From Acidimicrobiales bacterium (GTDB lineage: Bacteria; Actinomycetota; Acidimicrobiia; Acidimicrobiales; Iamiaceae), in assembly GCA_030447445.1 (NCBI GenBank), contig JAUJOW010000012.1, forward strand, positions 19,214 through 83,213: a DNA stretch of 64,000 nucleotides, read 5' to 3'. The position numbers were made by a program, and so were the translations under genes. Positions 60,603 through 63,508 of the stretch are shown here, piece by piece (the stretch's first letter is position 1; each line of letters begins with the position of its first letter). The notes under the pieces were generated by a model. It was given only the letters and a program-made list of their open reading frames with translations, was not told where the DNA came from and did not search any database.

Positions 60603-60992
60603 TCACCACTCGGTGCCGGCTCGCACGGTGGCGAACACGTCGTCGACGCCGGCGAGCGCTCGCTGGTGGCGGATCAAGCCGGCCACGTCGCCCCCGACCC
60701 GGAGACGGCCCACCATGAACGCCGCCTGGGCGGCCAGCTCCCCGCGGGTGATGGCGACGGCGGTGGCATGGTCCTGGCGGAAGGTGACGTCGGCCACCGC
60801 CGCCGGCCCCGGCCGTACGGCCACGTTGCCGTGATCGAGGACGACGTGCCAGGCGACGTCTCCCCCGGGCCCACCAGTCACCTCCTGTTGCACGACCAGG
60901 ACCACGTCGGCGGTGGCCGCCCGCAACGAGGCGCTCGTCGACGCCACCTGGTGCAGCTCGTCGATCCATTCCGGGGACAGGTACCGCGCCAC
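60603..60992 (-). CDS. SCP2 sterol-binding-like protein
   Basis: The 129-aa protein resembles the SCP2 lipid-binding fold: YLSPEWIDELHQVA at the start, a central beta region WHVVLDHGNVAVRPGPA, then VTFRQDHATAVAITRGELAA and RLRVGGDVAGLIRHQ. Such proteins bind fatty acyl chains or sterols. The GTG start is 8 nt after a TAGGGT -10. It is divergent from the PEP-mobile-domain operon and lies 9 bp upstream of the glycosylase gene. Confidence 0.8.
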   Translation of the reverse strand: MARYLSPEWIDELHQVASTSASLRAATADVVLVVQQEVTGGPGGDVAWHVVLDHGNVAVRPGPAAVADVTFRQDHATAVAITRGELAAQAAFMVGRLRVGGDVAGLIRHQRALAGVDDVFATVRAGTEW

Positions 60993-61000
60993 CGGCCGGG

Positions 61001-61006
61001 ACCCTA
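61001..61006 (-). promoter_or_regulatory. -10 element of the SCP2-like gene
   Basis: TAGGGT on the minus strand ends 8 nt before the GTG at 60992. Confidence 0.45.
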
Positions 61007-61044
61007 CCGGCGGCGAGCAACGGCCCGGTCGTCGGCGGGCGTCG

Positions 61045-61050
61045 TACGAT
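61045..61050 (+). promoter_or_regulatory. -10 element of the PEP-mobile-domain operon
   Basis: TACGAT ends 7 nt before the GTG at 61058; a leaderless start is predicted. Confidence 0.45.
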
Positions 61051-61057
61051 CCTCCGG

Positions 61058-61432
61058 GTGCGGGTCATAGGACGGGGCTCCAAGGTCTTCGACGCCGCCC
61101 CCGTCCGCGGCCGGCTGCGGGTGATGGAGAGCACCGACGACGTGCTCGAACTGATGGACGCCGGAGCGGTCGGGGTGATCGTCCTCCTCCGCGATGCCGG
61201 CGCCACCTTCCTCGCGCCGCTGTACCACGAGCTGGCCGGCATCATCTGCACCGGCGGCACGCCCCGCAGCCACATCGGCATCGTCAGCCGTGAGTTCCAG
61301 GTGCCCTGCGCCATGGGCACCCGTTTCTCCGATGACGACGACGAGGGCGGCGGCGACGGGGCCGGCGAGCCGGCCGACGGCACCGAGGTGGAGCTCGACT
61401 GCTCCGGCGAGGAGGGGTTGGTGCGTGGCTGA
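61058..61432 (+). CDS. Stand-alone PEP-utilising enzyme mobile (swivelling His) domain
   Basis: The 124-aa protein matches PF00391, the swivelling domain that carries phosphate on a histidine in PPDK, PEP synthase and rifampicin phosphotransferase. It has AGIICTGGTPRSHIGIVSRE followed by FQVPCAMG, where the SHxxIVxRE His is the phosphoryl carrier. The ATP-grasp and PEP/substrate domains that normally accompany it are absent, both here and in the neighbours as far as can be seen. An acidic insert (DDDDEGGGDGAGEPADGTEV) precedes the last strand. It overlaps the next gene by 8 bp. Confidence 0.85.
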   Translation: MRVIGRGSKVFDAAPVRGRLRVMESTDDVLELMDAGAVGVIVLLRDAGATFLAPLYHELAGIICTGGTPRSHIGIVSREFQVPCAMGTRFSDDDDEGGGDGAGEPADGTEVELDCSGEEGLVRG

Positions 61433-62564
61433 CCCGCCGAGTGACCCGGTCGTCGAGGCCAACCGCCTCATCGCCTACCACGCGCCCATCAGCGCCGCCC
61501 TCACGAACGAGCGCACGTCGCTCGAGTCCGAGCTCATCCCCGTGACCGCCTACATCGTGGTGGCCTGCGCCGAGGCCTACCTCCGCTACCCCGAGCTCAT
61601 GGCCCGCATAGACGCCGCCCTTCCCGCCGAGGAGATCGGCCGGCGAGCCCGGCGGCCCGGGCTGCGGGTGAACACCGTCGGCCTGTGGTCCATCGCCAAC
61701 TTCTGGTTGATCGGGCGCAAGGTGGTCCGCTCGCTCGATCCGGGCGGCGACGATCCGCTTCCGGCCGCCACCGTCCTCGGGTTCTGGGAGCGGGCGGCAC
61801 TGGGCTTTCGGGGCGACGGCACCCGCCAAGCGGCCGACGACGGCACCGCCCGCCCCTACGGGCCCGACCTGGTCGCCACGCTGGTCGCTGCGGTGGCCCC
61901 CGTCGACGCCGAGGACCGGGACCGGATCAAGCGGTTCAACGCCACGCTCGTGGCCTACCTGTTCCTGCTCTACTTCGACACCCGGGTCGGCAGCAGCGAC
62001 ACCGGCCCCTACCCCCTCCCCGACGGCCGCCGCCTGGTGGTGCGCGACTTCTACCAGATGGGCGAGAGCGACTTCTGGTGGTCCGACGTCGCCGGCCACC
62101 TGCCCTACCGCAACCTGACCGCCGCCCTCGTCCTGGACGGCGTCGACGTCTCCATCACCGACTTCGGTACCGCGCGCACGACCCCGGAGGACTACCTGGA
62201 CCACCTCGTGGGGTTCTCCCTGTGGACCACCGACACCGACGGCGGGGCCGGGGGCGGGCCTCTCCGGCCGGTGCCGCTCGACCGCCTCGACGGGATCATG
62301 GCCGAGGTGCGGCGGGCGCAGGCGGCGCTCTACCGGTCGATCGCCGCCATGAGCCGGGACGACAAGGTGCGATGCGGCGCCTACGTCTACTTCAGCATCC
62401 TGGCCCCCTTCGCCGACCTGGCCGGGGTGGCCGACGACGTCGACTGGTCGGTGCCGCTGGCGCTTCCCGGCGACTGGTACGACCTGTTCTCGGCCATGGA
62501 GGGAACGAACACGGGGGTCACCGACGACGGCCCGTACTACGAGCTGTACGAGGCGAACCGATGA
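61425..62564 (+). CDS. Hypothetical protein, 379 aa
   Basis: No known family is recognised. The protein is probably soluble and helix-rich. Distinctive segments are ITDFGTARTTPEDYLDHLVG, LVVRDFYQMGESDFWWSDVA, LYFDTRVGSSDTGPYPLP, and a C-terminal ALPGDWYDLFSAMEGTNTG. GTG 61425 has GGAGG about 9 nt upstream and overlaps the swivelling-domain gene by 8 bp. Its stop overlaps the next start (ATGA). Coupling to a phosphohistidine domain suggests it may be that domain's partner; this is inference. Confidence 0.75.
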   Translation: MADPPSDPVVEANRLIAYHAPISAALTNERTSLESELIPVTAYIVVACAEAYLRYPELMARIDAALPAEEIGRRARRPGLRVNTVGLWSIANFWLIGRKVVRSLDPGGDDPLPAATVLGFWERAALGFRGDGTRQAADDGTARPYGPDLVATLVAAVAPVDAEDRDRIKRFNATLVAYLFLLYFDTRVGSSDTGPYPLPDGRRLVVRDFYQMGESDFWWSDVAGHLPYRNLTAALVLDGVDVSITDFGTARTTPEDYLDHLVGFSLWTTDTDGGAGGGPLRPVPLDRLDGIMAEVRRAQAALYRSIAAMSRDDKVRCGAYVYFSILAPFADLAGVADDVDWSVPLALPGDWYDLFSAMEGTNTGVTDDGPYYELYEANR

Positions 62565-63508
62565 AGGAGCTCGAAGCCGATCCGGGTGACGAGCGCCGGC
62601 ACGAGCCCGGTCCCGAGGAGCTGTGGAACGAGTCGTGGTACTTCGACTTCACCGACGCCGAGGGCCGTCTCGGCGGCTACGTGCGCCTCGGCCTGTACCC
62701 GAACCAGGACACGGCATGGTACTGGGCCTGTCTCGTCGGCCAGGGGCGGCCGCTGGTCACCGTGATCGACCACGACGTGCCGCTTCCGGCGGGGAGCTCG
62801 CTCGAGATCCGCGCGGACGGGCTGTGGGCTGACCACACCGTCGAGGACCCCCTCGACCACATGACGCTCGGCTGTGAGGCCTTCGCCGTCGGGCTGTCGC
62901 ACCCGGCCGAGGCCTACGGGGCCATGCGGGGGGAGCGGGTGGCGTTCGGCCTCGACCTCGAGTGGGAGACCGACGGCGGCACGTACCCGTATCCGGGGGT
63001 GTCCCGCTACGAGGTGCCGTGCCGGGTCCATGGCGAGATCCTCGTCGGCGACGAGCGCATCGACCTCGACGGATGGGGCCAGCGCGACCACTCCTGGGGC
63101 GTGCGGGACTGGTGGAGCGTCGCCTGGTGCTGGACCTCGGGCCGCCTCGAGGACGGCACCCGCTTCCACGCCACCCACGTCACCCTCGGCGAGGCCCCGC
63201 TCTACGCCACCGGCTACGTGCAACCACCCGACGGTCCCTTGACGGCGGTCGATGGACGGGCTGTCGACCGGCGCCAGGTCCTCGGCGACCACGGGCTGCC
63301 GACCTCTGCCGAGATGGACCTCGCCGACCTGCGGCTGTCCATCGAGCCCGTCGCCTTCTCGCCGGTGCTGCTCACCGCTCCCGACGGCCGGGTGTCGCGC
63401 TTCCCCCGGGCGCTGTGCCGGTTCACCGACAGGCGCTCCGGCCGCTCCGGGGTCGGTTGGACCGAGTGGAACCAGCCGCAGCAGGGCGGGCCCGGGGGCG
63501 ACCACTAG
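62561..63508 (+). CDS. CrtC/DUF7064-like lipocalin-fold protein
   Basis: The 315-aa protein looks like the two-barrel AttH/CrtC superfamily (hydroxyneurosporene-synthase-like, DUF7064/7065). It has ELWNESWYFDF and GGYVRLGLYPNQDTAWYWAC at the N-terminus and the family hallmark GWGQRDHSWGVRDWW in the second half. Members bind or modify hydrophobic molecules such as terpenoids and are common in mycobacterial lipid and steroid loci. ATG 62561 overlaps the previous stop (ATGA). It is third in the operon; the dedA -10 overlaps its stop. Confidence 0.8.
   Translation: MKELEADPGDERRHEPGPEELWNESWYFDFTDAEGRLGGYVRLGLYPNQDTAWYWACLVGQGRPLVTVIDHDVPLPAGSSLEIRADGLWADHTVEDPLDHMTLGCEAFAVGLSHPAEAYGAMRGERVAFGLDLEWETDGGTYPYPGVSRYEVPCRVHGEILVGDERIDLDGWGQRDHSWGVRDWWSVAWCWTSGRLEDGTRFHATHVTLGEAPLYATGYVQPPDGPLTAVDGRAVDRRQVLGDHGLPTSAEMDLADLRLSIEPVAFSPVLLTAPDGRVSRFPRALCRFTDRRSGRSGVGWTEWNQPQQGGPGGDH

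Follow-up and report, generated by a model that had tools for sequence, protein, structure and literature searches.

A phosphohistidine swivel protein and the X379 family as the predicted substrate side of a split histidine phosphotransferase in Acidimicrobiales

The window, a stretch of 64,000 nucleotides from an Acidimicrobiales bacterium, contains at positions 60603-63508 a divergent minus-strand gene for an SCP2-like protein and three overlapping plus-strand genes. These encode a lone phosphohistidine swivel protein, a 379-aa protein (X379) and a DUF7065/DUF7064 protein (Table 1). We predict that the swivel and X379 supply the substrate side of a split histidine phosphotransferase, with X379 as a substrate-side protein of a new kind, and assign this reading a probability of roughly 0.6.

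Architecture of the Locus

The swivel and X379 genes overlap by 8 bp and the X379 and DUF7065/DUF7064 genes by 4 bp, as an earlier sequence-only reading had stated, and all three reading frames are open. Each is under purifying selection (pN/pS 0.29-0.44 against orthologues). The same reading gave the three genes one promoter. The overlaps and the 65-bp divergent gap make this plausible, but a scan for sigma-70-like promoters, which covers actinobacterial promoters poorly, recognized none in 3.3 kb on both strands (0.1 expected by chance). Pfam bears out the naming of the third gene as DUF7064 and of the divergent gene as SCP2-like, the third gene matching both the DUF7065 and the DUF7064 profile. 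The swivel was also correctly described as having no ATP-grasp or PEP-barrel neighbor: an ATP-grasp partner gene is absent at the window locus and at the loci of close relatives, and the PEP-binding barrel profile PF02896 matches none of the four window proteins (Pfam; the PPDK of L077, the positive control, does match).

Table 1. Features of the window locus (positions of the window) and plasmid clusters with RPH-type acceptors (positions of the respective locus).
Feature	Location	Strand	Evidence
SCP2-like protein, 129 aa; divergent	60603..60992	-	PF02036 E 4e-11
Lone phosphohistidine swivel protein, 124 aa, GTG start	61058..61432	+	PF00391 E 5.8e-8
Predicted phospho-accepting His72 codon (PRSHIGIVSRE)	61271..61273	+	Sequence; invariant in 35/35 aligned swivels
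X379, 379 aa, GTG start; proposed acceptor module	61425..62564	+	No family or fold match
DUF7065+DUF7064 protein, 315 aa, ATG start	62561..63508	+	PF23213 E 1e-16, PF23212 E 2e-26
Short PPDK/winged-helix/RPH-type acceptor-swivel/DUF7065-type cluster, M. avium	L148:3374-9629		
Same type of cluster, M. branderi	L150:4292-9276		
Same type of cluster, Diaphorobacter	L151:3266-8066		

The Lone Swivel Protein

The swivel protein reads PRSHIGIVSREFQVPC and scores 33 bits against PF00391, above the curated cut-off of 23.1. Its homologues begin at the same start position in a 35-sequence alignment, and none of the 35 departs from the His or the Arg of SHxxIxxR, so the phospho-accepting His is kept as expected. 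The best profile and fold matches are the swivels of PEP synthase, PPDK and RPH. A natural swivel-X379 fusion (L062) was also modeled, with moderate overall confidence (pLDDT 83.7, pTM 0.75). Over about 115-135 columns, one swivel in length, its swivel half is matched in fold by the swivels of PPDK, of pyruvate kinase and of RPH, and other Foldseek matches of the model are dihydroxyacid dehydratase and carbamoyl-phosphate synthetase. The part outside the swivel has no Foldseek match. PEP synthase, PPDK and PTS enzyme I likewise use a swivel domain with a catalytic His, but the window operon has no ATP-grasp, PEP barrel or HPr-binding part.

Pairing of the Swivel with X379

X379 occurs in 41 of 298 genomes of the order, across 16 families, and strong matches to the lone-swivel profile (at least 121 bits) fall in exactly the same 41. 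The co-occurrence expected by the sequence-only reading thus holds for swivel and X379 in 41/41 genomes. As for the four genes as a unit, the pair stands; SCP2 and DUF7064 accompany it often in the window's clade but not always, and the winged-helix-like partner, whose gene lies elsewhere in the genome, was out of that reading's sight. The remaining genomes reach at most 44 bits, mostly with swivels inside proteins of at least 500 aa, except for two. These two, G014 and G068, score about 100 bits and retain an SCP2-swivel-DUF7064 locus from which X379 is missing; the His is still present in their swivels, but the Arg found in every one of the 35 aligned partners has been lost. Loss of X379 together with decay of the swivel is as predicted for a two-part machine. 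Natural loci of this kind, with SCP2, swivel and DUF7064 genes, no X379 and a swivel that keeps its His but lacks the following Arg, are seen at L152:6233-6559 (-) and L153:1313-1627 (-).

The swivel lies within 1.4 kb of X379 in 57 of the 59 copies examined, which are not all independent; of the two exceptions, one copy sits at the edge of a contig and the other has its swivel 8 kb away in the same cluster. Order and strand of the two genes vary, being swapped in L050 and on opposite strands in L045-L049 and L056-L058. Three copies are swivel-X379 fusions (L062, L099, L100), and a fourth fusion, in R. opacus B4, joins swivel, X379 and a winged-helix protein in a single 793-aa chain. The pairing extends to plasmids of Rhodococcus, Methylibium and Paraburkholderia. 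Plasmid RPME01 of Methylibium petroleiphilum PM1 (L096:7402-11866) has genes for DUF7064, X379, a 153-aa protein, the swivel and the winged-helix protein in the vicinity of a B12-dependent methylmalonyl-CoA-mutase-type cluster. No Pfam family matches the 153-aa protein, for which L076 has a counterpart of similar size.

The X379 Family

No Pfam family matches X379, and its NCBIfam matches are trivial; among the latter, hints of kinship with GvpA are far under the cut-off, and this relationship was discarded. Searches of PDB sequences with X379 singly or as a 37-sequence profile give no credible match. AlphaFold2 predicts the protein alone with confidence (pLDDT 91.9, pTM 0.91); the model is helical and includes a region of six strands, and its best Foldseek match in the PDB has an E-value of only 0.76. 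The first impression of an unfamiliar protein therefore survives both family and fold searches, and no description of the family was found in open-access papers. A defense system was considered and set aside, X379 having no match in PADLOC. Assignment as a protein kinase from the motif ITDFGTART was likewise rejected: no kinase family matches X379, and only the Asp of the motif is near-invariant (44/48).

The residues Y43, F180, R187, G194, R207, W219, P254 and Y322 are the same in all 48 homologues compared, distant plasmid copies included, while D185, G189 and D192 are almost as constant. Such conservation suggests a functional site, including residues that may bind the substrate.

Candidate Donor Proteins and the Winged-Helix Partner

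At distant X379 loci a PPDK_N+swivel protein is encoded beside or near the pair (L051-L055, L076, L098, L104, and one cluster each in L099 and L100), and these loci encode two different swivels. The PPDK_N+swivel proteins of L051, L053 and L099 have no recognized PEP barrel, and the copies of L053 and L051, like that of an M. avium plasmid, exceed the NCBIfam cut-off for the short PPDK family PRK05878. A gene for a winged-helix-like protein of about 200 aa adjoins the PPDK gene in distant X379 loci and overlaps the short PPDK gene on the M. avium plasmid. This family is present in 40 of the 41 X379 genomes vs. 92 of the 257 other genomes of the order (Fisher p 4e-15, inflated by shared ancestry), a striking near-subset relation. 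Its gene is usually unlinked, lying by inspection between pnp/dapB and dapA/RNase J/ftsK genes.

The arrangement recalls VadK of M. tuberculosis. Its description reports an ATP-grasp + phospho-His architecture, a His that is autophosphorylated with ATP, and separation of VadK from its operon partner Rv1126c by a 2 M NaCl wash (PMC13400623). Distant X379 loci similarly pair a PPDK_N+swivel protein without recognized barrel with the winged-helix-like protein, a candidate counterpart of Rv1126c. VadK is, however, described as a regulatory kinase, proposed to control the methylcitrate cycle by binding its enzymes, and the passages of the article consulted mention neither a lone swivel nor X379 (PMC13400623). 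The X379 systems suggest testable partners for this recently described kinase.

A linked ATP-grasp donor and a short PPDK_N+swivel protein of the VadK type were both sought in the window's genome (86% complete) and not found. The only PPDK_N found there belongs to an ordinary full-length PPDK with its own PEP barrel, near a dnaG-like gene. A winged-helix-like partner is present, as an unlinked homologue on contig C7 of this genome (G000). Among 22 X379 genomes tested, seven have no PPDK_N, the single-contig genome G176 included. G176, G285, G119 and G113, which are among the X379 genomes without PPDK_N, have, with a glyS-like gene on one side and a dnaG-like gene on the other, a gene for a swivel+PEP-barrel protein that lacks ATP-grasp (G176 and G285 by Pfam, G119 and G113 by inspection). 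PEP may, speculatively, be the donor in genomes of this kind. PPDK-like proteins of this build and setting, consisting of swivel and PEP barrel only and found in X379 genomes without PPDK_N, are encoded at L143:3377-4885 (-) and L144:2314-3879 (-), and also in L145 and L147; they could serve as PEP-driven histidine phosphodonors.

RPH-Type Acceptors and Known Systems

Plasmids of M. avium, M. branderi and Diaphorobacter carry short PPDK and winged-helix genes near genes for a 503-572-aa protein and a DUF7065-type protein. The 503-572-aa protein matches the C-terminal part of RPH, with acceptor domain and swivel and no ATP-grasp, and from their gene content these clusters are a putative second kind of split dikinase. 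In profile comparisons the lone swivel aligns to the swivel of the plasmid protein (97%), and X379 shows no relation to the RPH-type acceptor (0.1%, hhalign); the notion that X379 is a disguised RPH substrate domain was dropped. RPH is also missing from the fold matches of X379 alone, and X379 has no RPH-family NCBIfam match. X379 looks like an alternative substrate module to the RPH-type acceptor. It is mainly because two unrelated acceptor types share one partner set that X379 is taken for an acceptor rather than a kinase. Where the sequence-only reading had offered "a new kinase or acceptor domain", the acceptor half fits better, an ATP-grasp+swivel protein accompanying X379 at distant loci and an RPH-type acceptor replacing it elsewhere. 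The window's own genome encodes an RPH-type acceptor-swivel protein without ATP-grasp (L078:6376-7905, contig C10 of G000), possibly a second client of the same donor.

HpeHI is a split swivel dikinase able to phosphorylate a small molecule (PMC12167813). In HpeHI, CreHI and PpsAB, as in the X379 system, a swivel with conserved His is separate from its ATP-grasp partner (PMC12167813), and some X379 clusters share the same type of carboxylase, CoA ligase and phosphatase genes downstream. In those systems, however, the swivel and an RPH-like substrate domain share one chain, whereas X379 is unrelated by profile and fold and mostly has its swivel as a protein apart; moreover, the window's clade has no linked ATP-grasp gene. 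RPH itself has a swivel related in sequence and fold and the three-part logic of donor, swivel and acceptor proposed here, but it is a single polypeptide whose ATP-grasp and RIF-binding domains are both absent from the window operon. The window locus thus has neither an RPH-like substrate domain nor an ATP-grasp encoded with the swivel. Because the defining substrate domain is lacking, the X379 system is not counted as a member of the HpeHI/RPH group, although it is proposed to work alike.

Proposed Mechanism and Alternatives

A donor encoded elsewhere would phosphorylate His72 of the swivel. The phospho-swivel would dock on X379, which would bind a small hydroxylated molecule, and the phosphate would pass to that molecule. 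The winged-helix-like protein, encoded elsewhere in the window's genome and a fixed partner by co-occurrence, may link donor and acceptor. In the distant relatives the donor is very probably the adjacent VadK-type ATP-grasp+swivel protein, judging from gene order; in the window's clade it could, more speculatively, be PPDK, or a PEP-barrel+swivel protein where ATP-grasp is absent. For the latter case we offer a rather unlikely extension: X379 would be a new fold to which a separate swivel hands phosphate, and where a genome lacks PPDK_N the ATP-grasp-less PPDK (swivel + PEP barrel) would make this a PEP-driven, multi-protein phosphorylation of small molecules outside the sugar PTS.

The split phosphotransferase is supported by the shared distribution (41/298), the proximity (57/59), the four fusions and the invariant His; by the ATP-grasp+swivel and winged-helix genes that adjoin distant X379 genes, the winged-helix family being found in 40/41 X379 genomes; by the partners shared with the RPH-type acceptor and the loss of the swivel Arg where X379 is lost; and by two precedents, the His autophosphorylation reported for a protein of the VadK type (PMC13400623) and HpeHI (PMC12167813). 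It is weakened by the lack of a linked donor in the window's clade, the 7/22 X379 genomes without PPDK_N and the ordinary nature of the one PPDK found in the window's genome, which has its own barrel. X379 also has no fold neighbor hinting at catalysis, the fusion model reaches a pTM of 0.75, and the two different swivels at distant loci complicate the phosphate route between them.

Some of the same evidence can be read as a regulatory phosphorelay, in which swivel and X379 respond to a metabolite by signaling, through phosphate transfer, to the winged-helix protein or metabolic enzymes, with no modification of a small molecule. No partner is more constant than the winged-helix-like protein, which in R. 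opacus forms one chain with swivel and X379; the role proposed for VadK (PMC13400623) is regulatory, and genes for malate, isocitrate and succinate dehydrogenases surround the close-clade locus. We nevertheless think a phosphorelay unlikely: several distant copies sit within catabolic clusters of carboxylase, CoA ligase, thiolase and phosphatase genes, and the place of X379 beside the same partners is taken by the RPH-type acceptor domain, known to phosphorylate small molecules. Doubtful to a greater degree is a swivel that acts as a binding or structural subunit rather than a phosphocarrier, required by an X379 that is an unrelated enzyme such as a lyase or hydratase. Swivel-like folds do occur in dehydratases and carbamoyl-phosphate synthetase, both represented among the matches of the fusion model, and the missing linked donor in the window's clade and the lack of PPDK_N in some X379 genomes would be explained; the invariant His and Arg of SHxxIxxR, the PEP synthase, PPDK and RPH swivels as best matches, and the ATP-grasp+swivel genes beside distant copies all argue for a phosphocarrier instead. 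That the genes are neighbors merely by hitch-hiking in a chromosomal region conserved clade-wide is scarcely credible. Gene order around the locus is indeed conserved across the close clade, but the pairing persists in unrelated surroundings (the three plasmid genera, the swapped order, the opposite strands, the fusions), and fusions and 41/41 co-occurrence contradict such an origin.

If the split phosphotransferase is real, X379 would be a second, unrelated acceptor module for swivel-type dikinases, examples of which are now turning up in the first steps of aromatic catabolism and in the inactivation of antibiotics. The ATP-grasp and winged-helix parts would then form a reusable base fitted with different substrate modules, and a protein family without known fold would gain a function.

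Possible Substrates

Neighboring genes differ by clade, so the substrate of X379 probably does too. In the window's clade the neighbors are DUF7065/7064, SCP2 and, by inspection, malate dehydrogenase, with succinate dehydrogenase genes further off. The SCP2 gene adjoins the swivel gene in 24 of 30 close-clade loci, and a relative of the DUF7065/DUF7064 protein is also present at distant X379 loci and RPH-type loci. The DUF7065/DUF7064 protein is proposed to handle the substrate or product, and together with SCP2 it suggests, weakly, that this compound is hydrophobic. In L053 (an AT-richer member of the order), L099 and L100 (Rhodococcus plasmids) and L101 (Novosphingobium), X379 occurs with a biotin-carboxylase set, CoA ligase and thiolase genes, accompanied by a tyrosine-phosphatase-like gene in the first three and a SurE-like gene in L101. 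By analogy, these sets resemble phenolic-ketone catabolism as in the Hpe pathway, where hydroxyphenylethanones are phosphorylated, carboxylated, dephosphorylated and CoA-activated (PMC9618137; PMC12167813). In another group the genes that accompany X379 encode thiolases, a Zn alcohol dehydrogenase and an OB_ChsH2_C protein. Of the lipid or terpenoid phosphotransferase suggested earlier, the split phosphotransferase is well supported by context, but lipid or terpenoid is a guess from the neighbors, and some distant clusters point to phenolic ketones. As a common substrate, a hydrophobic alcohol or phenol would be our guess. X379 operons that also contain ATP-grasp, winged-helix and HAD or DUF7064 genes adjoin EutN/BMC microcompartment, EutJ-like and aldehyde-dehydrogenase genes in L051-L054 and at L098:9471-21401, loci that come from marine-type relatives in the Acidimicrobiia and from a Rhodococcus plasmid.
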